A DNA stretch of 64,000 bases. Source: Giardia muris. Its lineage: Eukaryota; Fornicata; Diplomonadida; Hexamitidae. The notes beneath the pieces are model-generated. The model worked only from the letters and a program-made list of their open reading frames with translations. It searched no databases and was not told where the DNA came from. Below, piece after piece: positions 25,744 through 48,400 of the stretch. The stretch is from NCBI GenBank assembly GCA_006247105.1, contig CM016926.1, positions 558,001 to 622,000 of the forward strand, in the 5' to 3' direction. Numbering within the stretch: position 1 is the stretch's first letter; each line of letters starts with the position of its first letter. Position numbers and translations under genes: made by a program.

Positions 25744-25749
25744 TTTACT
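25744..25749 (-). promoter_or_regulatory. AGTAAA poly(A) signal overlapping malic enzyme stop
   Basis: The hexamer includes the TAA stop codon of the malic enzyme gene, so the 3' UTR should be very short. Confidence 0.6.
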
Positions 25750-28565: not shown

Positions 28566-29239
28566 CCCCGATTTTTCGAGAAGTACAGCACTAATTAAGG
28601 CTGGAGCCTCTTTTCACTATTCCCTTGTAGACCTTCATTTACAGGATGTGTCACGTGACATGCTGGTTGGTGGTCGGCTTAATACCGAGACCAAAGGAAT
28701 CACGACATCTGCTCTCACCTCTTACTCCTCTCTTTCCATGAACTGACCCACTATATCTATCTCTCTCCCATAACCGTGAACAAGCTTTGCTTCAGTGTAC
28801 ACAGTATCAATCCTCCAAGCTTTTCCTGCGACGTTTTTTTGATCCATCCGCATGACACGCGGCCCGGCTTGTGCCCCAGGCTGTACCTTGCATGCAGATA
28901 TACCGCCAATATTTCGGCGCACACCTTTAATTAAGCTCCAGGGTTGGTTAGAGGAGCATCTCTGACGAGGTCCCCGGTTTGCAGTCAGCATCCTTCAGGA
29001 CTCAAGAAAGCCCCCAAGTATCCCTAATCGCCCTACTATCCCGATTCTAAGGAGTGTTTCGCACCCAATGGTGCTGAGAAGACGAGTGAATGGTGTTTCT
29101 CACCAGATTGTCAAGAATGACAAACTCCATACGACTTGAGTCTTCGTCCATATAAACCTCAGTGTAGATATCCTGGCGGCTCTACCTAACCTCGATCCCT
29201 TCTGGAATGGGCTGATAATAACACGTCGACTCCAGGCCT
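28566..29239. other. 674-bp intergenic region flanking the left repeat arm
   Basis: I see no supportable gene here. Short open frames of up to 89 codons (28722-28991, minus strand) have no recognisable content or good start context. The segment separates the core gene cluster from the outer end of the inverted repeat. It includes a tRNA-like stretch near 28938-28990 that does not fold into a proper tRNA by inspection. Confidence 0.5.
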
Positions 29240-29573
29240 CCCCGCGAAAGTTCAGCACCCAGCTTTCCCACGGAGTCTCCCGCCGCAGTACTCACAGGGC
29301 CCGCGCCGGCTTCTCTTGCGAATTCGGAACGAGCTCGCGAGTTGCCCGGCGGGTGTGGCCGAACTGGGGGTTGCAGTCGGGAAGGCCGGGGGGATCAATT
29401 GGAGGGGTGCGGATCCAGGGGTAGGGCCGGAGTGAACGGGTCGTCCCGCAGGCTCGGGAGGGGCACTGAATCCTAGGGTCTGTGGGAGCCTCTCCTTGTT
29501 GGTGGGGAGGATTGGGGCATCGGGGAAGGTGTGTTCAGGCGGGGAGGAGGGGATTGATGCCTGATGCTCAAAA

Positions 29574-30750
29574 ATGCCCCTCACTGAGTTGATGAAGGCA
29601 GTCAGGAGAGGAGACCTCGAGGGCTGAAAAGGAATCTCCATGAGGTTGGGAAGAGGAACGAAAGTGGCAGCACGGCCCTGATGTGGGCAGTAGGGGAAGG
29701 CTATTCTAACTTCATCCCCCTCCTCGAGAAGAGGTTGGAATGAGGGACAACCGAGGACGGACTGCACTGATTTGGGCCCCCTTCACTGGCAAGACAGACT
29801 GTATTCGACCCCTCCTCTCCGAAGTGGGGAAGCAGCCGAAGAAGTGGAGCTTCCCCCGGAGCACAGCTCTCATGACGGCAGCCCACGAGGACTACCCCGA
29901 GGTCGTTGAACTCCTCTTCCCATGAACAGGGACTGACTCCAAAGGCCACACAGATGGCATGCAAACAACAGTCCAGATGAAGACGACTTCACTCGGGTCC
30001 GCCAGCTCCTCGAGAATGAGAGATCAGAACGCATCCCTCCCCCGAAGGAACCGCTACTGCCTCTGACGTCTGCAGTGGCCGGGGACGTCGGGGGAGTCAG
30101 GAACACTACACGTGAGCATCGAGGCTCATGAGATGTAGCTCTGATGATGGCCGCCTCTCACGGACGCCCCCCATCTGTCCCCCTGCTCCTCCCACTAGAG
30201 GGGGGGCTGTTCAACAACCAGAAGGAGACGGCCCTTCTGCTTGCACTCCAGGAGGGCTGGGTCGAGTGCGCAAGACTCCTGGCGGACGAGGCGGCAGTCC
30301 ACGAAGGGGACGGAAGAATGCACATCGAGGGGATCCGAAGGCTTGTTCGGGAGTGGCCTGACTCACTCCTATCAAGGACGTATCGAGCAGTTGCAGATAC
30401 CCTGGAGGAGGCGGTCATGCGGAAGGTACGGGAGAGGCTGGAGATGCTCAGCCCGCACCACGTCCTGGCCCTCCTGTCCCCAATCGAGCAGTCGGAAGGA
30501 GCTCGGAGAGATGGTCTGGTCGGCACTCCTCTGCGAGCCCGGAGCACTGGACGACGCCTTCTGTGAGGACGAGATGGTTGACGGGTGCATCGTCTGCCTC
30601 TCGCGCCAGAAGGACGCGGTCATCCTTCCCTGCCGGCACCTCGTCGTCTGTGAGGTATGTGCTGATCAGATCGAGCACTGCTGTCCGTACTGCCGGGGGA
30701 AGGCCGACGAGGCCCTTGTCGTCGAGTATCCTGAGTGGCCGGATGTGTAG
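29574..30750 (+). pseudogene. Broken ankyrin-RING gene, left copy
   Basis: This is the remnant of an ankyrin-repeat protein ending in a RING finger, broken into at least four frames. It starts at 29574 with ctcaaaaATG, the start context used by the intact kinase gene at 37932, and runs 17 codons to a TGA at 29625. Homology continues in another frame (29627-29743), then a third (29740-29925, with GRTALIWAPFTGKTD), and later frames near 30144-30480. The RING is in the frame that ends at 30750 (CIVCLSRQKDAVILPC, then CPYCRGK). Ankyrin matches to the intact genes at 35356-37932 and 38172-39353 show the original order. Every lesion is also present in the right-arm copy. Confidence 0.8.
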
Positions 30751-30840
30751 CCATACGACCCCCTCTCCGGTCCATCCAGATGAGCTGGAGGTCTATAATG
30801 AGCTCGATGTCACCTCTCGCTCCAGGTCTCCCCTTCACCA

Positions 30841-30846
30841 TTCACT
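30841..30846 (-). promoter_or_regulatory. AGTGAA poly(A) signal overlapping VSP stop (left copy)
   Basis: AGTGAA begins at the last base of the VSP TGA stop codon, the usual tight arrangement in Giardia surface-protein genes. Confidence 0.65.
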
Positions 30847-32720
30847 CACTTCCCCCTGCATCCGAACCACCAACCGAGGAAGCCCCCGAGACCTCCCAGC
30901 ACCAGCAGGACGGCAATGACGATTCCCGCAATGGCACCCCCCGAGAGCCCCGAAGAACTGGAGGAGGGGGGAGGGGGGCAGGTCCCATTGGCGTCGGGGC
31001 TGTTTCCATTCCAGCAGGTCGTGCAGGCGTCCTTCGTGCAGACCGTGCATCCTGAAGGGCAGGCCGTGCAGTTGAAGGGAGAGCCAGAGGCCGAGTTGTA
31101 GTATCCGATGGAGCAGTTAGTGCAGGTGAGGGCATTGTTGTTCGAGGTGCACGTCCCGCACCCGGCCGGGCAGAGGGTGAAGGTCCCTGAGGTCGTGTCG
31201 AGAGGGAAGGGGGCGTTGGTGGCAGCCTGAGTGCACTTCCCATCGGCATCGGCCGTCTGGCACAGCTTGCTCCCGACCGAGGTCCCGGAGGTGAGGGTTA
31301 TGGGATAGCAGCCTCCGTTGAAGAAGAAGTAGTTGGGGGAAGTACTCCCAGTCGGATTCTTGCACGCCTCGCACTTCGTGGCGGTCTTCTCGACAGGATT
31401 CCCGTCCGCCTTCATGCAGACGTTGTCCCCGGCTGCTCTCGTCCCCGTGTTGACGTCCCCGATCGGGGTGCAGGTCCCATCGATCGGGACGAACCCGGCC
31501 TTGCACTCCTTGCAGACGAGGGCCTCCCCGACGAGGAACTGGTTGTCCTTGGAGCAGATCCCCATCGAGCTCGCCTTGTAGGGGGAGAGGCAGGCCCCGT
31601 TGTAGAACATGTATCCATTGAGGCAGGAGGCGCAGGAGCCGGAGGAGGGGTCCTTTGTGCACACCTTGTCGTTCACGTCGACGCACTCATTGTCGACCGG
31701 GATCTGATCGCTCTTCGAGCACACGTCGCAGACGAGCCCGAGGCCGAGGTTGAGGCAGCTCTCGCATCCCGTCGAGCACTGGTTGCAGGCCGTGATGGCG
31801 GAGCCGTTCTTGACAGGCCCGAATCCCGCCTTGCAGCCCGTGCACTTGGTCACGTCGTCGTTACAGATCCCGCAATTCTGGACGGTGCAGGCGGTGCAGG
31901 TCTTAGCGGTGTCTCCGACGAGGCCGAAGCCCTCCTTGCAGGCGGTGCAGGCTGTAGATGAGCAGGTTTTGCAGTTCTCAACGGTGCACTTCGTGCAGGT
32001 TCCGTAGTTCTTGGTCGTATCGCTGTTAGCAGTATAGAAGAACCCTTCAGAGCACTTGTCGGTATCACAGTTTTGATGATTCGTGTCGGTGTCGCACTGA
32101 TCGCACCCAGTGGGGCAGGCCTCACAAGTTGCCGAGGTGCCCGACCCCGAAAGGAAGAAGGCGGGCCCGCACTTGGAGCAGGCGTTGGCAGCACTCGCCT
32201 GGACGCAGTTCTCGACTGAACAGGAGTAGCAGTTGGCGTTGTTCGCATCTGGGAGGTAGCCCGAAGCGCAGGCGTCGCACTTCCCGGTCCCAACAGCGTA
32301 TCCAGTTGCGCACGTCTTGCAGGTGTTGGCCTGGCTCGCCTCGGTGCAGTGGTCGCAACTCGTGCACTCGAAGCACTGGGTCATGGAGGTCGAGCTGTCG
32401 GGTTTGTAGCCCGAGGCGCAGGTGTTGCATTTACTGGCTGGAGTGTCATATCCAGTCTTGCAGGTGTCGCAGGTGTTGTCAGAACTCGCCGTGGCACAGT
32501 TGGTGCAGGCGGCGCAGGAGTAGCAGGCGGTTTTGTCTTCCTTGGGAAGGAAGCCGTCGTTGCAGGCGTCGCACCCTGAGTTGTCTGCATTGCACGTCTT
32601 GCAGTTGTTGATGGAACAAGTGTCGCTCCTGACTTTTCGGAGCTCGTTGTCGCCGGGAAGAGAGGCCCTTACTTGGGCAGCGATGACAGCATTCACCACG
32701 AGCAGGAGTGAAACGAACAT
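30846..32720 (-). CDS. Variant surface protein (VSP), left copy
   Basis: This 624-aa type I membrane protein belongs to the family behind antigenic variation. Residues 1-19 form a signal peptide (MFVSLLLVVNAVIAAQVRA). The ectodomain (about 20-585) is Cys-rich, with about 30 CxxC motifs, many Thr/Ser/Gly residues and repeated CxxCxxGY-like units. A Pro/Ser-rich spacer (CPPPPSSSSSG) leads to one TM helix (about 591-620) and a short tail ending GCRGK. Giardia VSPs share this layout with a CRGKA tail; the GCRGK variant is one reason to suspect G. muris. The start context gAATGTTC resembles the PyAATGTT type reported for VSP genes rather than the A-run of the other genes. The protein is identical to the right-arm copy. 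Only one VSP is normally expressed per cell, so either copy may be silent. Confidence 0.95.
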   Translation of the reverse strand: MFVSLLLVVNAVIAAQVRASLPGDNELRKVRSDTCSINNCKTCNADNSGCDACNDGFLPKEDKTACYSCAACTNCATASSDNTCDTCKTGYDTPASKCNTCASGYKPDSSTSMTQCFECTSCDHCTEASQANTCKTCATGYAVGTGKCDACASGYLPDANNANCYSCSVENCVQASAANACSKCGPAFFLSGSGTSATCEACPTGCDQCDTDTNHQNCDTDKCSEGFFYTANSDTTKNYGTCTKCTVENCKTCSSTACTACKEGFGLVGDTAKTCTACTVQNCGICNDDVTKCTGCKAGFGPVKNGSAITACNQCSTGCESCLNLGLGLVCDVCSKSDQIPVDNECVDVNDKVCTKDPSSGSCASCLNGYMFYNGACLSPYKASSMGICSKDNQFLVGEALVCKECKAGFVPIDGTCTPIGDVNTGTRAAGDNVCMKADGNPVEKTATKCEACKNPTGSTSPNYFFFNGGCYPITLTSGTSVGSKLCQTADADGKCTQAATNAPFPLDTTSGTFTLCPAGCGTCTSNNNALTCTNCSIGYYNSASGSPFNCTACPSGCTVCTKDACTTCWNGNSPDANGTCPPPPSSSSSGLSGGAIAGIVIAVLLVLGGLGGFLGWWFGCRGK

Positions 32721-34881
32721 TCTACCGGCAGAGGGTCGAAGCGGGATTCCGGGTGTGCTGGTGCCGGACAGAGGGCTCGGAAGGACTGTCGGGATGTGGG
32801 AAGGAGTCGAGAGCGGGCCGTGGGAAGAGGCGTTCGAGGTCGTCCAGAGGGGTCACGGTGTTGTCAGGAGGGAAGGGACATCCCGCAGGACGGGGCAGAT
32901 CCGACTTGGGAATAGTCCGAAAGCCCATCCCCCGTCCTGGACTCACTCCCCCCATGGATCTGGAGGACATCGGACGCCTTTGAGTTGAGGGGAGAGGCCG
33001 TTCTGCAGGCAGGTTCATGACCTCATGTGGCCGTCTGCCCTCAGGGACAAGTCCGGCCATGACAGGGCCCGGGGGTCCGCTTCGACAGGGAGCGTGTGAT
33101 CGCATCCCTCGGCACTGGACAACTCTATCAGCACCCCGGTTGTCCCGGCCCCACTTGTGCGAGTGCTATGTGGACCAGTCCAGGACCACGCCGGTGGACG
33201 AGGAGCACGGTTGATAGTTGAGATGGCGTGCCGATCCCTGACAGGGGACTCGCAGCATCCGGAAGTCCTGAGCAGTCTCGCATGCCTCAAGACGCCTCTG
33301 GTGGGGGAACGTCCTGGGCATCGATCCGCCTGGGGACTGCACAGGGAGGCAGTGTCCTTGGCGTACTCGGTCAGGACTGGATCGACGACGATGCTCAGAC
33401 GAAGGCTCGGTCCTCGTCTTCGGGGCTGATGGTCTGGGACGTTGGGGGGCTCGTATGCCACTGACTCCACTCTGAAGGACAGACTTCATCGCTTCCAGCC
33501 GGCCCAGAAGACCCCGTAGTTGCCCCGTTGCTCGTCTCCCAGTCCGAAAGGGGATCGGTCGAAGGTTTCCTCAATGCTGTGCTTCCGTCCAGACACCCCA
33601 CGCCTCTGAGGTCAGCGGTCATCCCAGCTCGGATCGTGGGAGCCAGCAGGACGTCCTGGACCACAGAGAACCGAGGGGCAGGGGGGTTCCGAAGACGCCC
33701 AGGAAGTCCCATTGGGCGGCCGTGCAGTCCAACAAGAAGCGCCCAGTCGACACGATCCTCCGGGGCCGGCCTGGCCTACGACTTGCGGGCTCTTTGGTGG
33801 TCGGTTCCTACAGCCTCCTCTGCGTACTGAGAAGTCAGAAGCGTCCTTCTACTCCCCGATGGCTCGGTCCCAGGCCATGCAGACCTTCTACCCTCTCTGT
33901 GACTACAAAGACGAGGAGGGAGAAACAGGGGAGGCCAAGAGGTCGCTTATGGAGGACTTCCTCGTGCAACCCCGGGCCCAAGGGACTGCTCGACTGTCCT
34001 TACCTCCGGGGTATCGTACATCGGCCATCGAGAGGAGATTAGCCACGCCCGGGGCGGCTTCAGGTCGTGAGGGACAGATCCCGGCAGTTATGCTCCGCTC
34101 GAAGCCACAGGCAGGAGTCCTTCCGAGTGATCGTGGCTCCCCCGGCTTCCAGCCAGCGAGGAACGGGGTCAGACGTGCGTCCCACCGGGGCTCTCCGAAA
34201 GGATGGTGCGTCGTTCCTTGACAGGTCGAGGAGCAGATCGATGCTCGTGGTTCGGGCCTGCTCTCCAGGACGTCCCGGTCCGTTCTATTGTTCCTGGACA
34301 CCTCAGGAGAGCGGGATAATCACACAGCTCCCCGGCCTGAGCCCACCGGGTGCTCGGGGAGGGGCCGATCGAATGGACTGCTATCACCAACGTGGACGAG
34401 CCCCCACCATCCCCTCCCTCGGACATCCCGGAGCGAGTCTTCCCCTCTCCCTTCTCTGAGGAGGAGGACCGAAGGGCTCCAAGCACATCGGCCTTCTTGT
34501 CGAAAGAGCCTCCAGCCCCCGGTCGACCGGAGGCATCTCCCGCCACCTCTCTGACCGGGACGCCCCCCACCGAGCTAAGGAGCGGGGGTCCTGTCTGTTG
34601 GCCCCCTCCCAGAGCCGGCCGTCAAGCGGGAGGTGTGATCGACCCCCAGGGGAAGCCTCCCGGACTCCCTGAGGACTCTTCCCCAGAGGACTGGACCCCC
34701 ACAACCCTCCCCTCTCCCAGTAGGGGCATAGGACTGAGAGTGCTCCTCCCCAGCTATTCACACGTCTTTCGTTCGTCCTGGTGGAGCACGATCCCCAGGA
34801 CTCGGGGAGTTGAGAATGTCCAGCCAGGCACTCCACGCACTTCGTTGATGTTGAAGACAGTGGGTGTAAGATATGAGAGTC
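32721..34881. other. 2.1-kb VSP upstream region without supportable gene (left arm)
   Basis: Open frames of 100-180 codons overlap on both strands and in several frames here. I could find no protein family in any of them, no A-rich start context, and only R/P/S/G-rich composition, typical of translating GC-rich non-coding DNA. The longest are 34350-34898 (plus) and 33015-33470 (minus). It may be decayed coding sequence or long VSP flanking DNA. The identical mirror copy is at 39354-41514. Confidence 0.5.
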
Positions 34882-35310
34882 CTAGAGGTACACCTTGACG
34901 GTGCTCTCGACGGGAGTCCTGCAGAGCGGGCACCTCCCGTTCCTGGTCTGCTCTGCACAAGTGGAGCAGACGCAGATGTGGTTGCAGGGCTGGAGAAGTG
35001 TGTCCTTCGGATTCGTGAGGCAGATGACACAGGTCATCCCCTCTGGAAGACTTCCGGACGAGGAGAGCTCCATGACGCCTCTTCGGTTGGCTGCTCCAGG
35101 GGTCGGGGGAGGGATCCGTTCCAAGCCCTCGTACTCGAGGAGCTCGTGGACTCGGGAGTAGTGGCCTCTCAACGCCTTCCCATTGTAGGCGTACCACTTG
35201 GCTGCGTGTTCCTCATCCCTTGGGGAGGGTCCTTCGCCCTCTCCTGGAGACAGTCAAGGAGGAAGGCCTCCATCTTCACTTGTCCTCGCCTTCCGGACTG
35301 ATGGGCAGGA
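34882..35310 (-). pseudogene. 5'-truncated ankyrin-RING fragment at the inner end of the left arm
   Basis: On the minus strand this encodes the tail of an ankyrin protein, with AAKWYAYNGKALRGHYSRVHELLEYEG resembling the post-ankyrin segment of the neighbouring kinase (AKWYANN, then VRKLLKNEG). A complete C-terminal RING follows (CVICLTNPKDTLLQPCNHIC, then CPLCRT, ending KVYL). Upstream of about 35262 the frame is closed by a TGA, and related sequence continues in another frame (from an ATG near 35248). No ankyrin repeats precede it, because the kinase gene ends at 35356. The RING part up to 35034 is inside the repeat arm; the ankyrin tail is unique and differs from the right-hand gene. Confidence 0.7.
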
Positions 35311-35355
35311 CCGCCTGATCCATTGAGGCTCTTGGGTCGTCATCCGGGACTCGGA

Positions 35356-37932
35356 TCAACCACTCTTCTGGGTCACGTGCCTCTCTGCCTCTTCTAGAAC
35401 AGCTTGTGCTGTCGGACGGTCTTCGGGGTTCTTTGAGAGCATCCGGGAGATGAGGGGACCAAGCTCACCCCTTCCCTCGATGACTGGGGGCTCTTCCACA
35501 GCAATAGCGATCACATTGGAGAAGGGGAGCATCCCAGTGCACATCTCATATCCAATCACCCCCAGGGCCCAGACGTCGACCGGGAAGGAGTACTGCGGCT
35601 CCGGATCATAGAGCTCATGGGCCATGTAGAGCTCCGTCCCTGCGATCGTGCTCATCCGGCGAGACCTGGCGGCATCTCGAACGAGTCCGAAGTCTGCGAG
35701 GACGAGCCTTCCATTTGGAGCAAGGAAGATGTTCCCCGGCTTCAGGTCTCTGTGGACGAGCCCCCTCTCGTGGAGGTAGGCAAGACCGCTCGCCATCTCC
35801 CGAAGGCATCTCCACACCTCCTCGTCCCTGAAGGGCTCTCCCCTCTTCCCGCGCCCCCGGACCTCGTCGAGGAGCGTCCCGGAGCACCACTCCATCACGA
35901 GGTAGGCGGTCCCGTTGTCCGGGTCGTCGTGCACCCGGTGGTAGCGGAGGACGTGGGAGTGCTCGAGGGAGGGGATGGTCCCCATCTCCCTTCGGAGGGA
36001 GTCGACGATCGTCCTCTCCATCTCCTCGTACTCGACGACCTTCAGGGCGCAGTTCCTGTGCTCCTCGGACCAGGCGGAGAAGACGGTCCCGAAGGCCCCC
36101 CTTCCGAGCCTCCCCGTAAGCTGGAAGGACGAGAGCTCATCGGGAAGGTCGGGGAGCTGGACCTTCTTTCTGAGGAGAGGCGTGATCTTCTTCTTCTTCC
36201 CATCGGGAAGGCCGTTGGCGACGTCCTCTGCCGTCCTGCCCTCCCCGTCCCTCAGGTCCCTCTCCAGAAGGAGGAGGCCGACGCACTCCTCGTGTCCTTC
36301 CCCCACTGCATGCATCAGGGCCGTCAATCCCCTCCCGTCCTGGAGGCGGGCCTCGAGGGGCCGGAGGAGGCGGACGACCTCGGTCTGGCCTCGGGAGGCG
36401 GCGTGCATCAGGGCCGTCATGCCTGAGGAGTCCTTCTGTCCCGCCTGGTCGAGGTGCCTTCGGAGTGTGTTGAGGTCTCCCTGGATGGCGGATGAGATGA
36501 GAGAGCTGTCCTCCCGTGCAGGGGGAAGCCTGCCCCCGACAGCAGCGAGGTTCTGGAGGAGGATCCTCTTCTCCTCCTCCACCTCCTCGAGGCGTCTCTG
36601 AAGGTCTTTCATGTCATGGTTCTCGGTCCTCAATTGGGTAACCTCCTTCTCGAGGGCGATGTTCTGGGCCTTCTGGTCAGCGAGTGCTCTCTTAAGGTCC
36701 TCAGTGGTCTTGGAGAGTTGCTCCTGAAGGGTCGCCTTCTCTGTGGTGAGGGAGTTGATGAGGGCTCGGTTCTGGTCAGAGGTCTTTCGAAGGTCCTCGC
36801 ACATCTCCGCATGCCTCTTGGACTCATTGATAGTATTGTCGAGCTGTTGTTTGAGGGAGGAGACTTCTGCAGTTAGCCGATCGATTCGAGTATTGTCCCG
36901 TCGTTCCCTGTCCTCGAACTGTTTGTGGAGGATATCGTTCTCTTCGTTGGTCTTGGAGAGCTGGGCTTTGAAGGAGGATATCTCTTGATTCATCTGGGAG
37001 AGCCGCTCCTCTGCTTCTTCTTGCGCCTTCTTGGAGGAGGATAGCTGCTCCTGAAGAGAAGTGTTCTCTGTGCGTAGGTGGGAGATCTTGTTGTCCTGCT
37101 TGAGTGTTGTGCTTTCCATCTCAGTGAGCTGGTTCTTGAGAGAAGCGTTCTCTCCCCTCGCCTCGGCAAGGCTCTTCTCGGCCTCCTGTGCTCTCTTGTT
37201 CAGGGCCTCGTTCAGCTCGTGATTCTTCTTGGACTCATCGATGGCATTGTCGAGCTGCTGTTTGAGAGAGGAGACTTCCCGATTCAGTTGGGATAGCTCA
37301 TTCTTCATTTCCTCATGTGCATTCTTGAAGGAGGAGAGGTCTTTCCTGAGAGACTCATTCTCAGTGGTGAGCTCATCGACACGCTCTCGAAGCTCAAGCA
37401 TTTCAGCAGGGTTTGATGGATGAGGGAGGCGAATTGTTCCTTCGTTCTTGAGGAGCTTGCGGACCTGGGTGAAGTCTCCTCTCTCTGAACTGTTATTCGC
37501 GTACCACTTGGCAGTGTGACCTTTAGAGTCTTTCATTCCTTGTTCATAAGGGAGGAGGAGCTGGACGACATTGGGACGGTTGTAGTGGGATGCTATCATG
37601 AGAGCGGTCGTTCCAGAAGGGAAGGGAACTGTTTTGCCATATAGAGCGATTGTACTATTCTCTGTTGCCTGCTTCCCCGCCTCTGAAAGGAGGAGCCAGG
37701 CACAGTCTGTCTTGCCATGGTAGGCGGCCCACATCAGTGCGGTCCATCCAAAGTTGTTCTGCATCCCAATCTCCCTCTCGAGGAGGGGGATGCAATTGGC
37801 GTGACCCTTCCAGGCGGCAAACATTAGGGCCGTCTGACCATTTCCACCCTTCTTCCCAACCTGATTGAGATTCCTTTTCACGCCCTCGAGGTCGCCATCT
37901 CTAGCCGCCTCCATCAAAGCAGTAACGGACAT
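35356..37932 (-). CDS. Ankyrin / coiled-coil / ankyrin / NEK-type kinase
   Basis: The domain order in this 858-aa protein is unusual: N-terminal ankyrin repeats (about 1-165), a long coiled coil (about 180-465), a second ankyrin block (about 480-570) and a C-terminal kinase (about 590-855). The kinase has GRLGRGAFGTV (about 600-610), the ATP lysine in ALKVVEY, HRDLKPGN (about 724) and DFG (about 744). The usual APE reads AHE (about 770). All catalytic residues are present, so it is probably active. In most diplomonad NEKs the kinase is N-terminal. The ATG follows ttcaaaa, and N-terminal MSVTALMEAARDGDLEGVKR shows the canonical start of the local ankyrin family. It sits in the unique centre of the inverted repeat, divergent from the ankyrin-RING gene. 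Confidence 0.9.
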   Translation of the reverse strand: MSVTALMEAARDGDLEGVKRNLNQVGKKGGNGQTALMFAAWKGHANCIPLLEREIGMQNNFGWTALMWAAYHGKTDCAWLLLSEAGKQATENSTIALYGKTVPFPSGTTALMIASHYNRPNVVQLLLPYEQGMKDSKGHTAKWYANNSSERGDFTQVRKLLKNEGTIRLPHPSNPAEMLELRERVDELTTENESLRKDLSSFKNAHEEMKNELSQLNREVSSLKQQLDNAIDESKKNHELNEALNKRAQEAEKSLAEARGENASLKNQLTEMESTTLKQDNKISHLRTENTSLQEQLSSSKKAQEEAEERLSQMNQEISSFKAQLSKTNEENDILHKQFEDRERRDNTRIDRLTAEVSSLKQQLDNTINESKRHAEMCEDLRKTSDQNRALINSLTTEKATLQEQLSKTTEDLKRALADQKAQNIALEKEVTQLRTENHDMKDLQRRLEEVEEEKRILLQNLAAVGGRLPPAREDSSLISSAIQGDLNTLRRHLDQAGQKDSSGMTALMHAASRGQTEVVRLLRPLEARLQDGRGLTALMHAVGEGHEECVGLLLLERDLRDGEGRTAEDVANGLPDGKKKKITPLLRKKVQLPDLPDELSSFQLTGRLGRGAFGTVFSAWSEEHRNCALKVVEYEEMERTIVDSLRREMGTIPSLEHSHVLRYHRVHDDPDNGTAYLVMEWCSGTLLDEVRGRGKRGEPFRDEEVWRCLREMASGLAYLHERGLVHRDLKPGNIFLAPNGRLVLADFGLVRDAARSRRMSTIAGTELYMAHELYDPEPQYSFPVDVWALGVIGYEMCTGMLPFSNVIAIAVEEPPVIEGRGELGPLISRMLSKNPEDRPTAQAVLEEAERHVTQKSG

Positions 37933-38171
37933 TTTTGAACATCAAGCATCCCCTTCACCAGCCTTCCACTGAGGCCCCCATCTGACACTCTGGGCATCCA
38001 ACCACTACCAACGACCTGCCCCGAGGACGGGAGGCCCACAGCTCTCCTCGGGGTGCTCTCGTCCCTGGATAAGCTCCCATTGATCGTCACTCTCCCCTTA
38101 TAGCCCCCCAACCCCCTGGTGAGGGTCGGACCCGTTCCCCTCTCAAGGACGAATGGTCTCTGACGAGAGCC
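37933..38171. promoter_or_regulatory. Divergent intergenic region at the centre of the inverted repeat
   Basis: This segment lies between the kinase start and the first possible start of the ankyrin-RING gene. Only the kinase side has a clear A-rich initiator (tcaaaaATG). I see no comparable element on the other side, which adds to doubt about that gene's start. Confidence 0.4.
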
Positions 38172-39353
38172 GTGCCAGACGGAGAGAGGAGCCCACTGGC
38201 TTCCCGGGGACGGGTGCATCGATCTGGACGCCCCTCTGTTGTCGAGGGGATGCGAGATGGTGGGTCAGCCTCTGGGACCGGAGGGGAGGGAGCTGGGGCT
38301 CGGAAACATCCCCACTCCTTTGAGACATCGAGAGGGAAGGACGATCTCGATGAGGTCGGGGAGAGGAACGAAGATGGACGGACTGCACTGTGTAGGCCGC
38401 AAGACGTGGCCGCACAGATTGTGTTCCTCCTTTCTGAGGCAGGAAAGCAAACAACGAAGGACTGGAATGGGCTTCCCCCCGGAACAACTGCTCTCATGAT
38501 CGCGGCCCATCGCAACTATCCCGAGGTCGTTGGGTTCATCTACCCCTACGAGCAGGGCAAAAGAGACGCCAATGGGAAAACAGCCCTCATGAAGGCCGCA
38601 GAGGAAGGCCATGTCAGCTGTGCGCTCCTGCTCAGGGGGGAGACCGGGATGCAGGACAAGGATGGGTGGACCGCACTGATGTGGGCCGTGTGGAACGGCC
38701 ACACGAACTGTGTCCGACTCCTCCTCTCCGAGGTTGGGGTTCAGGCGACGCAAGAGTGCAACGGCTTCCCTTCTGGAGCGACCGCCCTCATAATGGCAGC
38801 CCACCGAAGCCATCCCGAGATCGTTGAGCTCCTTCTCCCCTACGAACAGGGAATGAAAGACTCCGAAGGCCATACCGCTCACTGGCATGCGAACAACAAA
38901 GGGTACTCCGCCCAGGTCCGAAAGCTCCTTAAGAAAGAAGGCACGAAGCGCCTTCCTCCTTCACTGAACTCTGAAGTACTCGAACTCCGAGAGTGTGTCA
39001 ACGAACTCGCCGTCGAGAACGAGTCTCTCAAGAGGGGCCTCTCCTCACTCAAGAATGCCCAAGAAGAGGCGGATGACGAGCCGTCTCAAATGAGCCAGAA
39101 AGTCTCCTCCTTCGAGGAGCGGTTAGAGAAGTGCCAGGAGATGAACAGAAGCCTTCGGAGGACCCTGAACCAGAAGACCGAAGAGGCTAAAGCGATCACA
39201 ACCTGTGTCATCTGCCTCACGAACCCGAAGGACACACTTCTCCAGCCCTGCAACCACATCTGCGTCTGCTCCACTTGTGCAGAGCAGACCAGGAACGGGA
39301 GGTGCCCGCTCTGCAGGACTCCCGTCGAGAGCACCGTCAAGGTGTACCTCTAG
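38172..39353 (+). CDS. Ankyrin-repeat protein with C-terminal RING finger
   Basis: This 393-aa frame has ankyrin repeats (about 75-245), a short coiled coil (about 265-335) and a RING finger (about 344-382) with CVIC, CNHIC, CSTC and CPLC, ending KVYL. RING-ankyrin proteins are likely E3 ubiquitin ligases; the target is unknown. The first 75 or so residues look wrong. There is no canonical ankyrin-family start, and GRTALCRPQDVAAQIVFLL reads like GRTALMWAA-type repeat sequence shifted by small deletions and then restored. The true start is therefore uncertain (Met27 at 38250 is an alternative), and the gene may be decaying at its 5' end. The last 153 bp (RING) are inside the right repeat arm. 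Confidence 0.7.
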   Translation: MPDGERSPLASRGRVHRSGRPSVVEGMRDGGSASGTGGEGAGARKHPHSFETSRGKDDLDEVGERNEDGRTALCRPQDVAAQIVFLLSEAGKQTTKDWNGLPPGTTALMIAAHRNYPEVVGFIYPYEQGKRDANGKTALMKAAEEGHVSCALLLRGETGMQDKDGWTALMWAVWNGHTNCVRLLLSEVGVQATQECNGFPSGATALIMAAHRSHPEIVELLLPYEQGMKDSEGHTAHWHANNKGYSAQVRKLLKKEGTKRLPPSLNSEVLELRECVNELAVENESLKRGLSSLKNAQEEADDEPSQMSQKVSSFEERLEKCQEMNRSLRRTLNQKTEEAKAITTCVICLTNPKDTLLQPCNHICVCSTCAEQTRNGRCPLCRTPVESTVKVYL

Positions 39354-41514
39354 GACTCTCATATCTTACACCCACTGTCTTCAACATCAACGAAGTGCGT
39401 GGAGTGCCTGGCTGGACATTCTCAACTCCCCGAGTCCTGGGGATCGTGCTCCACCAGGACGAACGAAAGACGTGTGAATAGCTGGGGAGGAGCACTCTCA
39501 GTCCTATGCCCCTACTGGGAGAGGGGAGGGTTGTGGGGGTCCAGTCCTCTGGGGAAGAGTCCTCAGGGAGTCCGGGAGGCTTCCCCTGGGGGTCGATCAC
39601 ACCTCCCGCTTGACGGCCGGCTCTGGGAGGGGGCCAACAGACAGGACCCCCGCTCCTTAGCTCGGTGGGGGGCGTCCCGGTCAGAGAGGTGGCGGGAGAT
39701 GCCTCCGGTCGACCGGGGGCTGGAGGCTCTTTCGACAAGAAGGCCGATGTGCTTGGAGCCCTTCGGTCCTCCTCCTCAGAGAAGGGAGAGGGGAAGACTC
39801 GCTCCGGGATGTCCGAGGGAGGGGATGGTGGGGGCTCGTCCACGTTGGTGATAGCAGTCCATTCGATCGGCCCCTCCCCGAGCACCCGGTGGGCTCAGGC
39901 CGGGGAGCTGTGTGATTATCCCGCTCTCCTGAGGTGTCCAGGAACAATAGAACGGACCGGGACGTCCTGGAGAGCAGGCCCGAACCACGAGCATCGATCT
40001 GCTCCTCGACCTGTCAAGGAACGACGCACCATCCTTTCGGAGAGCCCCGGTGGGACGCACGTCTGACCCCGTTCCTCGCTGGCTGGAAGCCGGGGGAGCC
40101 ACGATCACTCGGAAGGACTCCTGCCTGTGGCTTCGAGCGGAGCATAACTGCCGGGATCTGTCCCTCACGACCTGAAGCCGCCCCGGGCGTGGCTAATCTC
40201 CTCTCGATGGCCGATGTACGATACCCCGGAGGTAAGGACAGTCGAGCAGTCCCTTGGGCCCGGGGTTGCACGAGGAAGTCCTCCATAAGCGACCTCTTGG
40301 CCTCCCCTGTTTCTCCCTCCTCGTCTTTGTAGTCACAGAGAGGGTAGAAGGTCTGCATGGCCTGGGACCGAGCCATCGGGGAGTAGAAGGACGCTTCTGA
40401 CTTCTCAGTACGCAGAGGAGGCTGTAGGAACCGACCACCAAAGAGCCCGCAAGTCGTAGGCCAGGCCGGCCCCGGAGGATCGTGTCGACTGGGCGCTTCT
40501 TGTTGGACTGCACGGCCGCCCAATGGGACTTCCTGGGCGTCTTCGGAACCCCCCTGCCCCTCGGTTCTCTGTGGTCCAGGACGTCCTGCTGGCTCCCACG
40601 ATCCGAGCTGGGATGACCGCTGACCTCAGAGGCGTGGGGTGTCTGGACGGAAGCACAGCATTGAGGAAACCTTCGACCGATCCCCTTTCGGACTGGGAGA
40701 CGAGCAACGGGGCAACTACGGGGTCTTCTGGGCCGGCTGGAAGCGATGAAGTCTGTCCTTCAGAGTGGAGTCAGTGGCATACGAGCCCCCCAACGTCCCA
40801 GACCATCAGCCCCGAAGACGAGGACCGAGCCTTCGTCTGAGCATCGTCGTCGATCCAGTCCTGACCGAGTACGCCAAGGACACTGCCTCCCTGTGCAGTC
40901 CCCAGGCGGATCGATGCCCAGGACGTTCCCCCACCAGAGGCGTCTTGAGGCATGCGAGACTGCTCAGGACTTCCGGATGCTGCGAGTCCCCTGTCAGGGA
41001 TCGGCACGCCATCTCAACTATCAACCGTGCTCCTCGTCCACCGGCGTGGTCCTGGACTGGTCCACATAGCACTCGCACAAGTGGGGCCGGGACAACCGGG
41101 GTGCTGATAGAGTTGTCCAGTGCCGAGGGATGCGATCACACGCTCCCTGTCGAAGCGGACCCCCGGGCCCTGTCATGGCCGGACTTGTCCCTGAGGGCAG
41201 ACGGCCACATGAGGTCATGAACCTGCCTGCAGAACGGCCTCTCCCCTCAACTCAAAGGCGTCCGATGTCCTCCAGATCCATGGGGGGAGTGAGTCCAGGA
41301 CGGGGGATGGGCTTTCGGACTATTCCCAAGTCGGATCTGCCCCGTCCTGCGGGATGTCCCTTCCCTCCTGACAACACCGTGACCCCTCTGGACGACCTCG
41401 AACGCCTCTTCCCACGGCCCGCTCTCGACTCCTTCCCACATCCCGACAGTCCTTCCGAGCCCTCTGTCCGGCACCAGCACACCCGGAATCCCGCTTCGAC
41501 CCTCTGCCGGTAGA
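39354..41514. other. 2.1-kb VSP upstream region without supportable gene (right arm)
   Basis: This is the mirror copy of 32721-34881. It has overlapping long open frames on both strands, none with a recognisable domain or start context. It separates the RING 3' end from the VSP ATG at 41515. Confidence 0.5.
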
Positions 41515-43389
41515 ATGTTCGTTTCACTCCTGCTCGTGGTGAATGCTGTCATCGCTGCCCAAGTAAGGGCCTCTCTTCCCGGCGACAACGAGCTCCGAAA
41601 AGTCAGGAGCGACACTTGTTCCATCAACAACTGCAAGACGTGCAATGCAGACAACTCAGGGTGCGACGCCTGCAACGACGGCTTCCTTCCCAAGGAAGAC
41701 AAAACCGCCTGCTACTCCTGCGCCGCCTGCACCAACTGTGCCACGGCGAGTTCTGACAACACCTGCGACACCTGCAAGACTGGATATGACACTCCAGCCA
41801 GTAAATGCAACACCTGCGCCTCGGGCTACAAACCCGACAGCTCGACCTCCATGACCCAGTGCTTCGAGTGCACGAGTTGCGACCACTGCACCGAGGCGAG
41901 CCAGGCCAACACCTGCAAGACGTGCGCAACTGGATACGCTGTTGGGACCGGGAAGTGCGACGCCTGCGCTTCGGGCTACCTCCCAGATGCGAACAACGCC
42001 AACTGCTACTCCTGTTCAGTCGAGAACTGCGTCCAGGCGAGTGCTGCCAACGCCTGCTCCAAGTGCGGGCCCGCCTTCTTCCTTTCGGGGTCGGGCACCT
42101 CGGCAACTTGTGAGGCCTGCCCCACTGGGTGCGATCAGTGCGACACCGACACGAATCATCAAAACTGTGATACCGACAAGTGCTCTGAAGGGTTCTTCTA
42201 TACTGCTAACAGCGATACGACCAAGAACTACGGAACCTGCACGAAGTGCACCGTTGAGAACTGCAAAACCTGCTCATCTACAGCCTGCACCGCCTGCAAG
42301 GAGGGCTTCGGCCTCGTCGGAGACACCGCTAAGACCTGCACCGCCTGCACCGTCCAGAATTGCGGGATCTGTAACGACGACGTGACCAAGTGCACGGGCT
42401 GCAAGGCGGGATTCGGGCCTGTCAAGAACGGCTCCGCCATCACGGCCTGCAACCAGTGCTCGACGGGATGCGAGAGCTGCCTCAACCTCGGCCTCGGGCT
42501 CGTCTGCGACGTGTGCTCGAAGAGCGATCAGATCCCGGTCGACAATGAGTGCGTCGACGTGAACGACAAGGTGTGCACAAAGGACCCCTCCTCCGGCTCC
42601 TGCGCCTCCTGCCTCAATGGATACATGTTCTACAACGGGGCCTGCCTCTCCCCCTACAAGGCGAGCTCGATGGGGATCTGCTCCAAGGACAACCAGTTCC
42701 TCGTCGGGGAGGCCCTCGTCTGCAAGGAGTGCAAGGCCGGGTTCGTCCCGATCGATGGGACCTGCACCCCGATCGGGGACGTCAACACGGGGACGAGAGC
42801 AGCCGGGGACAACGTCTGCATGAAGGCGGACGGGAATCCTGTCGAGAAGACCGCCACGAAGTGCGAGGCGTGCAAGAATCCGACTGGGAGTACTTCCCCC
42901 AACTACTTCTTCTTCAACGGAGGCTGCTATCCCATAACCCTCACCTCCGGGACCTCGGTCGGGAGCAAGCTGTGCCAGACGGCCGATGCCGATGGGAAGT
43001 GCACTCAGGCTGCCACCAACGCCCCCTTCCCTCTCGACACGACCTCAGGGACCTTCACCCTCTGCCCGGCCGGGTGCGGGACGTGCACCTCGAACAACAA
43101 TGCCCTCACCTGCACTAACTGCTCCATCGGATACTACAACTCGGCCTCTGGCTCTCCCTTCAACTGCACGGCCTGCCCTTCAGGATGCACGGTCTGCACG
43201 AAGGACGCCTGCACGACCTGCTGGAATGGAAACAGCCCCGACGCCAATGGGACCTGCCCCCCTCCCCCCTCCTCCAGTTCTTCGGGGCTCTCGGGGGGTG
43301 CCATTGCGGGAATCGTCATTGCCGTCCTGCTGGTGCTGGGAGGTCTCGGGGGCTTCCTCGGTTGGTGGTTCGGATGCAGGGGGAAGTGA
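41515..43389 (+). CDS. Variant surface protein (VSP), right copy
   Basis: This 624-aa VSP is identical to the one at 30846-32720: signal peptide, about 30 CxxC motifs, one C-terminal TM helix and a GCRGK tail. The two genes point away from each other, 8.8 kb apart. Identity extends through the 2.1-kb upstream region, so both share the same promoter sequence and the same mRNA. A probe or RNA read cannot tell them apart, and Giardia-type RNAi silencing of one would silence both. Confidence 0.95.
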   Translation: MFVSLLLVVNAVIAAQVRASLPGDNELRKVRSDTCSINNCKTCNADNSGCDACNDGFLPKEDKTACYSCAACTNCATASSDNTCDTCKTGYDTPASKCNTCASGYKPDSSTSMTQCFECTSCDHCTEASQANTCKTCATGYAVGTGKCDACASGYLPDANNANCYSCSVENCVQASAANACSKCGPAFFLSGSGTSATCEACPTGCDQCDTDTNHQNCDTDKCSEGFFYTANSDTTKNYGTCTKCTVENCKTCSSTACTACKEGFGLVGDTAKTCTACTVQNCGICNDDVTKCTGCKAGFGPVKNGSAITACNQCSTGCESCLNLGLGLVCDVCSKSDQIPVDNECVDVNDKVCTKDPSSGSCASCLNGYMFYNGACLSPYKASSMGICSKDNQFLVGEALVCKECKAGFVPIDGTCTPIGDVNTGTRAAGDNVCMKADGNPVEKTATKCEACKNPTGSTSPNYFFFNGGCYPITLTSGTSVGSKLCQTADADGKCTQAATNAPFPLDTTSGTFTLCPAGCGTCTSNNNALTCTNCSIGYYNSASGSPFNCTACPSGCTVCTKDACTTCWNGNSPDANGTCPPPPSSSSSGLSGGAIAGIVIAVLLVLGGLGGFLGWWFGCRGK

Positions 43390-43394
43390 GTGAA
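43389..43394 (+). promoter_or_regulatory. AGTGAA poly(A) signal overlapping VSP stop (right copy)
   Basis: The hexamer starts at the last base of the TGA stop of the right-hand VSP and matches AGTRAA exactly. Confidence 0.65.
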
Positions 43395-43484
43395 TGGTGA
43401 AGGGGAGACCTGGAGCGAGAGGTGACATCGAGCTCATTATAGACCTCCAGCTCATCTGGATGGACCGGAGAGGGGGTCGTATGG

Positions 43485-44661
43485 CTACACATCCGGCCAC
43501 TCAGGATACTCGACGACAAGGGCCTCGTCGGCCTTCCCCCGGCAGTACGGACAGCAGTGCTCGATCTGATCAGCACATACCTCACAGACGACGAGGTGCC
43601 GGCAGGGAAGGATGACCGCGTCCTTCTGGCGCGAGAGGCAGACGATGCACCCGTCAACCATCTCGTCCTCACAGAAGGCGTCGTCCAGTGCTCCGGGCTC
43701 GCAGAGGAGTGCCGACCAGACCATCTCTCCGAGCTCCTTCCGACTGCTCGATTGGGGACAGGAGGGCCAGGACGTGGTGCGGGCTGAGCATCTCCAGCCT
43801 CTCCCGTACCTTCCGCATGACCGCCTCCTCCAGGGTATCTGCAACTGCTCGATACGTCCTTGATAGGAGTGAGTCAGGCCACTCCCGAACAAGCCTTCGG
43901 ATCCCCTCGATGTGCATTCTTCCGTCCCCTTCGTGGACTGCCGCCTCGTCCGCCAGGAGTCTTGCGCACTCGACCCAGCCCTCCTGGAGTGCAAGCAGAA
44001 GGGCCGTCTCCTTCTGGTTGTTGAACAGCCCCCCCTCTAGTGGGAGGAGCAGGGGGACAGATGGGGGGCGTCCGTGAGAGGCGGCCATCATCAGAGCTAC
44101 ATCTCATGAGCCTCGATGCTCACGTGTAGTGTTCCTGACTCCCCCGACGTCCCCGGCCACTGCAGACGTCAGAGGCAGTAGCGGTTCCTTCGGGGGAGGG
44201 ATGCGTTCTGATCTCTCATTCTCGAGGAGCTGGCGGACCCGAGTGAAGTCGTCTTCATCTGGACTGTTGTTTGCATGCCATCTGTGTGGCCTTTGGAGTC
44301 AGTCCCTGTTCATGGGAAGAGGAGTTCAACGACCTCGGGGTAGTCCTCGTGGGCTGCCGTCATGAGAGCTGTGCTCCGGGGGAAGCTCCACTTCTTCGGC
44401 TGCTTCCCCACTTCGGAGAGGAGGGGTCGAATACAGTCTGTCTTGCCAGTGAAGGGGGCCCAAATCAGTGCAGTCCGTCCTCGGTTGTCCCTCATTCCAA
44501 CCTCTTCTCGAGGAGGGGGATGAAGTTAGAATAGCCTTCCCCTACTGCCCACATCAGGGCCGTGCTGCCACTTTCGTTCCTCTTCCCAACCTCATGGAGA
44601 TTCCTTTTCAGCCCTCGAGGTCTCCTCTCCTGACTGCCTTCATCAACTCAGTGAGGGGCAT
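43485..44661 (-). pseudogene. Broken ankyrin-RING gene, right copy
   Basis: This mirror of 29574-30750 has the same start (ATG at 44661), the same premature stop after 17 codons, the same frame changes, and the RING end in the frame that stops at 43485. The two copies are identical where compared, so the gene was already dead before the arms were duplicated, or the arms have since been homogenised. It is convergent with the VSP, with 95 bp between the stop codons. Confidence 0.8.
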
Positions 44662-45076
44662 TTTTGAGCATCAGGCATCAATCCCCTCCTCCCCGCCTGA
44701 ACACACCTTCCCCGATGCCCCAATCCTCCCCACCAACAAGGAGAGGCTCCCACAGACCCTAGGATTCAGTGCCCCTCCCGAGCCTGCGGGACGACCCGTT
44801 CACTCCGGCCCTACCCCTGGATCCGCACCCCTCCAATTGATCCCCCCGGCCTTCCCGACTGCAACCCCCAGTTCGGCCACACCCGCCGGGCAACTCGCGA
44901 GCTCGTTCCGAATTCGCAAGAGAAGCCGGCGCGGGCCCTGTGAGTACTGCGGCGGGAGACTCCGTGGGAAAGCTGGGTGCTGAACTTTCGCGGGGGGAGT
45001 CTGTTTCATCCCTTGTCCTTATTGTTCTGCCTGTTCATGTGCTCTTTCTCTATGTAGAAGCGGCTCAGACTTCAAA

Positions 45077-45400
45077 ATGATAGGATTGTATGAACGTCTT
45101 TTGACACTCACTGCCGACACTCTTGACGCTCTTAAGGAGGCGATGACTGGGACCGTTAACATGGATGTGCTACGAGGGCTATCCAGGATGTTTATTGACG
45201 TCCTCAACGAATGTCATCGTGAGATTCAAACTCTTGGGCGTGATCTTCAAACTCATTGGTATGAGCCATCGGTTCAAGCCAAGATGCACTCCTTACTTGA
45301 GCGGAAGATTCGGGAGGAATTGACGGACGGCGTCAAACAATGGCGAGATGCGGTCAGTCCACATATGCATCATGATGAGGATGCTCATGCCAGTGGATAG
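45077..45400 (+). CDS. Small helical protein, unknown function
   Basis: This 107-aa product is predicted almost wholly helical and acidic, with an amphipathic pattern (LRGLSRMFIDVLNECHREI). It has no signal peptide or known domain. I accept it as a gene because it starts in the local context ttcaaaATG, fills the gap between the repeat arm and the convergent transporter gene (16 bp away), and its codon use looks like that of the core genes. It could be a subunit of a larger complex, but nothing in the sequence says which. Confidence 0.6.
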   Translation: MIGLYERLLTLTADTLDALKEAMTGTVNMDVLRGLSRMFIDVLNECHREIQTLGRDLQTHWYEPSVQAKMHSLLERKIREELTDGVKQWRDAVSPHMHHDEDAHASG

Positions 45401-45416
45401 CTGGTATGGTGGGGGT

Positions 45417-48400
45417 TTACACACCTGCCCCTCTTGTGATGATCTTCTCACGTAGAGCGTCTGCGTTCTTACACTCGGAGATCAAAGATGCAAAAATGGA
45501 TTCTGGCCTTTCTAACAACGCTCGTGGAGTGTCGAACTCGGAGACGCGCCCGGCGTTCATGACGATGATGCGGTCAAAGTCGACAATCGTGTCGAGGCGA
45601 TGGGCGATGGCAAGGATTGTACGGTCGCAAAGGGATGTGCGGATCGTCTTCTGAATGATAGCATCACTCTCGCCATCCACCTGGGCTGTTGCCTCGTCAA
45701 GAATTACAAGGGGTGCATCGGATAAAAGAGCACGGGCGACACAGACGAGTTGGCGCTGTCCAGCCGAAAGGTTATCCCCGTTGGCCGCAATCTTCGCATC
45801 AAGCCCGCCTGGCTGCTTCTCGAAGTACTCGCGCATTTGGACTTGTTCTAAGACGCGCCAGAGCTTCTCGTCGGAATGCCTGGTGTAACACTTAAGCATC
45901 TGACCACTCATCCCATCTGCTTGCATTTGGGAATATGTGCACAAACATGTCCGCAATGTACCCGAGAACAAGAAGGGGTCTTGTGGGATGATAGCAACAT
46001 GTGCACGAGCCTCGTTAATGGGGATCTGCAACAGGTCTGTCTTACCCACTATTATCTTTGCACCATCTTCTGGCTCACATAGACGGAAAATGGCTGTCGT
46101 AAGAGATGACTTCCCAGCCCCTGTGCGTCCAATAATCCCGACGCGCTCTCCACGTTTTATTTCAAACGTTACGTCGTGTAGCACTAAATCGAGTTCGGGA
46201 CGGTATCGAAGAGAAAGGTTATGGACCTTCAAGCCCACCTCCTCCTCCTCCACGTCTTGTTCATGAGGAGGGAGTTCCTTCTCCTCGGAAGGGAGATTAC
46301 AATACTCACTTAAACGCTCGACACTATTCATGGCACCCTCGAGGCTCGACATGGAAAAGACGAACACAACTAACTTCGTATTCAGTGCATAGCCGTTGGA
46401 TAGGAGCATTCCCACATACTTCGCGCCGTCCCCGATGGGTGCGATGATAACCGCACAGATGCTTAAAGCAACAACGAAGACCGCCATCAACGTGTTCCCT
46501 CGGAAACTAAGCCAGCGGAACATCACCCGTTTCAGCCACTCCGCGCTATAACTCCGCGTCAGGTTCTTCATATTGACTTCCATCAGATCCACTTCCTTCC
46601 GATAGCTCCGAATCGTCGGCAAGGCGGAGAGTGAGTCCTGAATGAGGGCGAAGACCGGGCTTGAAAGGACTGAGCTCAAGCGCGAGAGCTGTGGAGATAC
46701 GATTCGAAAACTCAGGAAAATGCTAATGTAAGCGATGAGGATGATGATAAGGGCAATGATGAAAGGCCAAGACAGGATTGATATAACTATGTTATTGATC
46801 GTCAGGAAGACAAAGTCATCGATCACAGGGCTCAAGGAGTTGGGGACGCTAGTATCGCAGCGATCGATATCTCGACTAAAGCGATTTAGTATTCGTCCCA
46901 TCGGATTAGTCTCGAAGAAGAGTAGTCGGGTGTGAAGAACTGCATTCGCCATCCGAGTATGGGCCAGTCTCGCCGCGGCTATAGAGCTATAGTTGTAAAG
47001 TATTCGGCCAAGGAACACGAAGAGGGTGTAGATCGCCGATATCGCGATGTAGATCCCGATATACCAGTAGTCTGGAATTCCATAAGCGTTATTTGTCCAA
47101 TGAGTAATGAGAAGAGATAGGTACTGCTGTAACAGGTTACCGACAATGGAAATCATTATGTACCCCACGATCCTGTTTCGTCCACACATCCGGAACCACT
47201 CGCGATAGGTCTTCCAGCCAACTGTCCCAATATCCGATTGCTTCTCGTCGTCGACGATATGGACAGGCTTCTGACTCTTCTTGGCGAGAATGTCCTTACT
47301 TCTGGCCAATGTCATATGGGAAGAGGCGGCTAAGTCATGGGACGATGTCGATACGGAAATCAACCCACGTGCATTCATTGCATCGTGATTAACCCTTTCG
47401 AGTATGCCATTGGTGACCTCAAAGATAAGGTCACAGTCCGCAAAGAAGTGCACGTGATGAGATACTATGACAACGGTCTTCTTTCGCTCCCGAATCAAAT
47501 AGCTACAAATGGCATCTGCCCAAAGAGTCTTGCCAACATGTGCGTCGACGGCGGATAGCGGGTCGTCCAGTAGGTAGATGTCCGAATCCGCATAGATGGC
47601 ACGTGCTAGAGCAACACGTGCCTTCTGACCACCAGACAAGGTGATCCCACGCTCTCCAATCTCCGTCTCAACACCGTCGGCAAACAACTCCAAGTCTCCT
47701 TCTAGACACGAGAGCTGAATGGCACGAGTAAACCGTGCCTCGTCGTACTCATTAAAGAAAAGAACGTTACTCTTAATGGTCCCAGACATGATGTAGGGAA
47801 TCTGTGCACAATAGGCAATAGTCCCTTGGCTGAGGATACGTGCAGAAGGATCAGTTGATATGTTTGCAAGTTCACCAAGCATGGCAAGCAGAAGAGAGGT
47901 TTTCCCAGCACCCACCGTCCCATGGATTCCTACGAGATTACCCTTGGGGATGGAGAATGTTAAGTTCTGAAGGATAGGTGGGCATGCATCCTTGTGAATC
48001 ATCATATCACGAGCCTTACGGAACCCAATTCTATATGGAGCGAAGCGCGGATCATCTATGAAATGCATGGCGGTTGCCACGTGCAAGTATGCCCTTTGTG
48101 CCGCCTGCAACGGTGTGTCAGCGCTCGTAGGAAGGTAACATATCTCCTTGTATGCCGAGATTTGATCCAGAAGTGTGAGACTTGGAAGGTCACAAAGCTG
48201 AGCCCATTGATCCAGGTATGGGCAAGATAATGATACGGCATCACAAAGGGTTTCAAGCTCATCGGAAGGAATAGGACTTGGAGTGACCCGTAGAAGACGT
48301 TGAGATGCAACTCTATGTTCATGTTTTAAAGAGGGAAGCATACGCCTGAAACGCTTGATCGCGTCGGAAGTGGGCTTAAAGAGAGGGTCAAGGATCATTG

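Follow-up and report, generated by a model that had tools for sequence, protein, structure and literature searches.

Mirror-image pairs of VSP genes in Giardia muris as probable old scaffolds whose arms are probably kept identical by arm-to-arm recombination

The mirror-image pairs of VSP genes in Giardia muris are probably old scaffolds whose two arms have been kept identical by repeated arm-to-arm recombination (gene conversion). In this study, one such pair was analysed in a window of 64,000 nucleotides of G. muris DNA (assembly GCA_006247105.1, contig CM016926.1, positions 558,001 to 622,000) and was compared with further mirror pairs of the same assembly, which was searched as 9.74 Mb in 52 contigs (C1, C2, C5 and so on). 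The pair itself is already known. Table 3 of PMC7641422 lists, on G. muris chromosome 2, the genes 16 008 and 21 957 in the orientation '<- ->' with 624 aa, at a distance of 8794 bp and with NEK and ARP-2 between them; because the protein length, the orientation, the distance and both intervening genes all agree, the window pair is this published pair. That entry gives the gene identities and the distance, and the 5.8-kb arms, their single difference and the shared junctions described below are not part of it (supplements excepted). Furthermore, neither a description of concerted evolution of VSP pairs nor a test of the cause of identity between paired copies was found in the literature searched, which took in subscription papers only to a small extent. 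What merits attention here is the explanation of copy identity, not the pair.

A repeat search with a minimum length of 200 nt returned a single inverted repeat in the window, the two arms of which are given in Table 1. An earlier note on this DNA had described arms of 5795 bp in opposite orientation around a 4166-bp centre with one difference at 35011/39224, and base-by-base comparison bore this out: the alignment that it proposed, of 29240-35034 with the reverse complement of 39201-44995, gave 1 mismatch in 5795 (99.98% identity, above 99%), located about 24 bases from the inner boundary of the arm. The identity extended by 0 bases at either end, so that the arms end sharply on both sides, and only short matches (no more than 38 columns) were present in the 500 bp past either arm end. 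A chance origin of the arm match is excluded. Moreover, each arm does carry a full VSP gene, as the same note had stated, and the two coding sequences were identical at 1872 of 1872 nt, stop codon excluded; the upstream DNA of each gene, put there at 2.1 kb, measured 2314 bp from the start codon, with a further 1606 bp downstream of the stop. Assignment to the VSP family was supported by a Pfam VSP match (E=4.5e-23).

The gap of 8794 bp between the two VSP genes holds the NEK and ARP-RING genes. The RING-encoding 3' end of ARP-2, namely its last 153 bp (39201-39353), lies inside the right arm, and most of the gene lies in the centre. On the left side, the frame resembling the end of a second ankyrin-RING gene has its RING part (34882-35034) in common with the right arm, and its remainder is not shared. 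Among the genes flanking the repeat region (25745-27415 and 45417-49883) are one for a malic enzyme and one for an ABC transporter of 1488 aa.

Table 1. Features of the mirror pair in the window and arms of the seven VSP pairs compared
Feature	Position	Strand	Length	Remarks
Left arm	29240..35034	+	5795 bp	repeat search and base-by-base comparison
Right arm	39201..44995	-		reverse complement of the left arm, single mismatch (39224)
Centre between the arms	35035..39200	.	4166 bp	
Sole arm difference	35011..35011	.		A here, C at the partner 39224 (hence G in the reverse complement)
VSP gene, left arm	30846..32720	-	624 aa	ends GCRGK; one of the published genes 16 008 / 21 957
VSP gene, right arm	41515..43389	+	624 aa	identical to the first, head to head
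Ankyrin and protein kinase gene, 'NEK' of PMC7641422 Table 3	35356..37932	-	858 aa	intact, in the centre
Ankyrin-RING gene (ARP-2 of PMC7641422)	38250..39353	+	367 aa	crosses the inner end of the right arm
Frame resembling the end of a second ankyrin-RING gene	34882..35253	-		
VSP 3' flank	29240..30845	.		homologues elsewhere run past the equivalent of 29240 into shared sequence absent here
Arms of the window pair			5795 bp	1 differing column
Arms of the C5 head-to-head pair			6902 columns	14 differing columns: 10 mismatches plus a gap of 4 bp; the last 30 bp contain eight of the 14
Arms of the C4 tail-to-tail pair			11435 columns	12 differing columns
Arms of the C1 2.37 Mb tail-to-tail pair			6575 columns	15 differing columns
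Arms of the C1 1.96 Mb tail-to-tail pair			at least 7375 columns	1 differing column
Arms of the C2 1.19 Mb tail-to-tail pair			at least 5543 columns	0 differing columns
Arms of the C1 0.84 Mb tail-to-tail pair			at least 6482 columns	6 differing columns

Of the eight arrangements that PMC7641422 gives in its Table 3, seven were compared; the one left out is a cluster of four copies on C2 (2.03-2.07 Mb). That cluster was seen in the assembly at C2:2034111-2066172 as at least four VSP matches of equal score, one on the minus and three on the plus strand. When the seven pairs were pooled, the arms differed at 49 of 50,107 columns, in which the lengths for the C1 1.96, C2 1.19 and C1 0.84 Mb pairs are lower bounds, as their arms exceed the compared sequence. 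Within the seven pairs, 4 of 12,597 nt of VSP coding sequence differed; between pairs, the coding sequences (left copies) were 9.4 to 43.7% different. In a tree of 17 VSP sequences (14 paired and 3 others), both genes of every pair were placed together. The sole VSP coding difference of the C1 0.84 Mb pair (C1:838993) gives one copy the C-terminal tail GCRRK in place of GCRGK. In addition, at least two sets of opposite-strand VSP neighbours with unequal scores, C1 2762961/2768230 and C4 1252113/1258698, were noticed by eye among the best 71 of 416 candidates; inverted VSP neighbours with an intermediate degree of identity may therefore exist.

Such uniformity might also come from the assembly, if the assembler had mirrored a single unit or smoothed true differences. 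The published assembly was made with HGAP from PacBio RS II data with Illumina correction (59 contigs, 9.8 Mb; PMC7641422), which is a point for this reading. The remaining two-gene rows of that Table 3, six in number, have distances that equal the assembly coordinates exactly, tail-to-tail distances being counted with the stop codons; the seven agreeing distances provide no independent check, since the assembly is apparently the same as the published one. In the assembly searched, the centre is present once and the two outer flanks differ, the outer stretches 28560-29250 and 44985-45420 each having one match, themselves; moreover, differences private to one arm were kept in six of the seven pairs, some of them clustered. 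These observations argue against an artefact, which we consider very improbable. The arms are about as long as many PacBio RS II reads, which speaks for it, and a read with a missed adapter yields no unique centre, which speaks against it. Pre-assembly by HGAP may blend near-identical copies, and the true divergence of the arms may exceed the count; it is unlikely, however, to make arms alike that differ by many percent.

The near identity of the arms had been attributed in the earlier note to recent origin or constant homogenisation. Under the former, a recent inverted duplication, one VSP unit would have been copied in reverse beside itself and would be too young to have diverged. The near-identical arms in the window, and their sudden outer ends within flanks that each gave a single match, are in keeping with such an event, and a recent origin was given as possible for the pairs of G. 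lamblia, for which duplication and transposition were favoured (PMC2996952). Pairs at different loci that share their inner junctions bear on the choice. The centres of the C4 and C1 2.37 Mb pairs are homologous (97.3% over 2226 columns aligned in one piece) and their inner arm ends coincide, C4 position 965599 aligning with C1 position 2379926 and 962549 with 2376783; because centres and arm ends are shared, the mirror pair probably predates the separation of the two loci. Likewise, the three short tail-to-tail pairs (C1 1.96, C2 1.19 and C1 0.84 Mb) have both inner junctions in common within 11 bp, the junctions lying 19 bp beyond the VSP stop codon at C1 1.96 Mb and 8 bp beyond it at the other two loci, and their centres align end to end. 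The C1 1.96 and C2 1.19 Mb centres differed at 43 of 1617 sites (2.7%), and the C1 0.84 Mb centre differed from the other two at 250 of 1589 and 255 of 1608 sites, with more than 400 gap columns in each comparison. The common inner junctions within each group (two and three loci) suggested that the mirror architecture probably arose once per group. Judged from these alignments, it is likely that two mirror architectures each arose once and later spread to several places.

For the sister pairs, informative sites in ungapped columns were scored as grouping the arms within a locus or across loci. Arms that had diverged independently since the spread would be expected to group with their counterparts at the other locus. 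The inner 4 kb of the C4 and C1 2.37 Mb pairs (n = 3963) gave 269 sites within and 0 across, besides 21 sites that varied in other ways. In the short tail-to-tail pairs, the counts over 2 kb (709:0 and 568:0) include poorly aligned stretches, and the inner 900 bp was used instead; the ratios within versus across were 193:0 for C1 1.96 and C2 1.19 Mb (n = 867), 277:0 for C1 1.96 and C1 0.84 Mb (n = 856) and 284:0 for C2 1.19 and C1 0.84 Mb (n = 855). The arms of these junction-sharing pairs differed by 0.0-0.23% within a locus; between loci, the difference was about 6% for the inner arms of C4 versus C1 2.37 Mb and 34-44% for the VSPs of the three short pairs. This grouping within loci despite a shared architecture requires that homogenisation took place inside each locus after the loci had split. 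The pattern in the five sister pairs is one of concerted evolution, of which arm-to-arm gene conversion is the simplest means as far as the sequences go. A recent duplication, by contrast, would still need homogenisation after separation in the junction-sharing pairs; this argument is direct for the five pairs, not for the window pair, and we regard recent duplication as an unlikely, although not negligible, account. Of the two causes offered by the earlier note, homogenisation was thus upheld by sister comparison in five of the seven pairs and is favoured for the window by analogy only, and its proposal that gene conversion could keep the VSP copies identical gained support, from the sister pairs, as an evolutionary argument only.

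The antigen genes of sister pairs can be very different. The VSPs of the C1 1.96 and C2 1.19 Mb pairs are 35.8% apart, to the same degree in both arms of each locus, and no further alignment of at least 150 bp between the arms of these two loci was found past about 940 bp from the inner end. Since each locus has matching arms, at least one of the two loci has had both of its arms taken over by a different antigen unit. One reservation about this mirrored antigen is that exchange of centres between loci may have occurred, which would make them look too young. If the arms are maintained by gene conversion, one arm would serve as the template for rewriting the other, homogenisation would recur after loci of a shared architecture had separated, and new antigen sequence would be mirrored into both copies, whereby the few intact antigen genes would stay intact. 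We infer that the copying proceeds by gene conversion rather than by another route of arm re-copying. A further step is more tentative, and we put it forward at somewhat less than even confidence: fixed scaffolds may pass antigens through, a VSP that enters one arm being copied to the other and decay being erased, which would amount to a copy-proofing of intact genes beside a broken archive.

The window pair was also compared with the head-to-head pair on C5, and the site counts of these two were 254:0 within versus across loci, with 8 other variable sites (n = 3753). As the two pairs do not have both junctions in common, this count is supporting only; it fits concerted evolution, and two independent recent duplications would also be compatible with it. 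The left inner junction of the window pair (34771-36717) is continuous with the arms at C1 1.96 Mb (84.7%), and the right one (38646-41984) with a VSP locus at C5 1.01 Mb (93%) that is not listed as a pair; no locus with both junctions was found in the assembly. Descent of the window and C5 pairs from one ancestral head-to-head pair is not put forward, in that only the RING-side junction is shared and the C5 pair joins NEK directly on the left. The C5 pair and the C1 2.76-Mb copy both lack about 190 bp of the VSP 5' flank (34537-34724).

On the inner side, the arm identity stops where two different RING genes cease to be alike, which fits homology-limited copying. As a guide to the last donor arm, the RING segment 34805-35034 was compared with other copies: its identity was 92.9% to the C1 1.96 Mb left type, 86.0% (157 bp) and 89.7% (126 bp) to two other copies of the left type, and 86.6% and 87.3% to two of the right type; the right types were themselves 87.9-89.3% alike to the C1 1.96-Mb left type. 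The outer end is abrupt in flanks that were found once each, and at least one non-homologous join is therefore needed. The abrupt boundary at 29240 is as would be expected of a non-homologous duplication end, which counts against a reading by conversion. Several homologies of the VSP 3' flank end at or within a few bases of 29240, including those at C1 2375751, at the C4 pair and at C4 near 435322. The outer boundary was considered as the end of a mobile unit and this was rejected: the C1 2.37 Mb pair, the C4 pair and a C4 copy at about 435.3 kb share sequence beyond it, which the window lacks on both sides. From this comparison, the boundary in the window is read as a truncation.

Copying in one direction was traceable at the C5 pair, where 1001 bp from the 3' end of a large neighbour gene occur identically in both arms (C5:721000-722000 and 737161-738161). 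The frame of this gene is C5:717003-722000 and the right arm has a truncated copy; since the whole gene stands on the left, the copying ran from left to right. The 1001 bp without a difference point to at least one recent copying event, a point in favour of recent duplication. GC content was 61.2-63.1% in arm segments, 58.6% in the centre, and 51.5 and 49.7% in the 5-kb outer flanks. These values nevertheless lend no support to GC-biased conversion as a mark of paired arms, because homologues not listed as pairs are equally GC-rich (VSP 5' flank: 63.8% in the pair versus 63.8% and 63.2% in two such homologues). By analogy, we infer that the window pair behaves like the five cleanly tested pairs.

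The further proposals of the earlier note, inversion of the centre and hairpin-mediated rearrangement, are conjectural here. Long identical inverted arms would also allow crossing-over, and the pair might then act as an inversion switch: turning the 4-kb centre around would alter context or transcription, be it of the two VSP genes or of the central genes. In each arm, however, 2.3 kb of DNA upstream of the VSP gene is included, with one mismatch, so that a flipped centre would leave the near context of both VSP genes the same. Moreover, none of the nine window proteins scanned, a set without the small frames, matched a recombinase family. No outer flanks common to sister loci, by which the orientation of the centre could be fixed, were found. 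On these grounds such a switch appears improbable. Equally, a transcript across a mirror pair might yield double-stranded VSP RNA, on which RNA-based silencing of VSP genes could draw. Transcripts overlap for 892 of the 1,097 G. intestinalis tail-to-tail gene pairs whose 3' ends were mapped (PMC3610916), and three of the sister pairs have this arrangement, their VSP genes lying 1.66 to 2.03 kb apart. The window pair has a head-to-head arrangement and two intact genes in its gap, and thus no ordinary transcript would span both arms; Dicer, Argonaute and RNAi are also absent, by text search, from the main text of PMC7641422. A role as a source of hairpin RNA is accordingly given very little credence.

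The proposed maintenance of old scaffolds by arm-to-arm copying can be set beside known systems. In 2010, 14 pairs of identical vsp genes were reported in G. lamblia (PMC2996952), and the window locus is ordinary for the genus Giardia. The inverted vsp pairs of G. lamblia WB, 4 head to head and 10 tail to tail, likewise consist of identical VSP genes in opposite orientation with flanks that are near-identical until an abrupt end (PMC2996952). Their divergence points lie 139-729 bp from the coding regions, compared with 2314 bp upstream and 1606 bp downstream in the G. muris arm, and their ORFs are 2190-3847 bp apart, compared with a gap of 8.8 kb with intact genes in the window (PMC2996952). 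The gaps of the nine tail-to-tail pairs given in Table 5 of that paper range over 2393-3222 bp, which may point to a scaffold in common. The 2-4 kb of non-coding DNA that separates the G. lamblia genes is not present here, where 8794 bp with the NEK and ARP-RING genes intervene; since the published G. muris pairs also hold genes or pseudogenes between them, this is taken as a species difference and not as a defining feature. Mammalian sex-chromosome palindromes have gene-carrying arms that are more than 99% identical, as here, and an architecture older than divergence, as do the junction-sharing G. muris sister pairs (PMC8981503). Unlike those palindromes, the present pairs belong to a protist, carry antigen genes on kilobase arms and show no GC elevation specific to the paired copies; the case for conversion is made within one genome, not across species.

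Other VSP loci of the assembly are arranged differently. At C5:531553-554723, at least 12 matches to the window VSP recur every 2017 bp on one strand, with 88-89% identity over the C-terminal 331 residues; this is apparently the internal pseudogene array of PMC7641422. Among the matches listed, those at C3:1289605 (the end of C3), C34:17731 and C35:3100 had equal scores, which suggests that the small contigs C34 and C35 repeat a chromosome-end VSP array.

In conclusion, the paired vsps of G. lamblia were regarded by the authors of PMC2996952 as interesting but cryptic. The sister pairs with common inner junctions and very different antigens provide a direct test, which favours long-lived pairs maintained by exchange. 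If this is true, recombination in Giardia would also preserve intact VSPs, besides diversifying them, and the mirror pairs would be part of the reason why the G. muris repertoire still holds 26 complete VSP genes next to 239 pseudogenized ones (PMC7641422).
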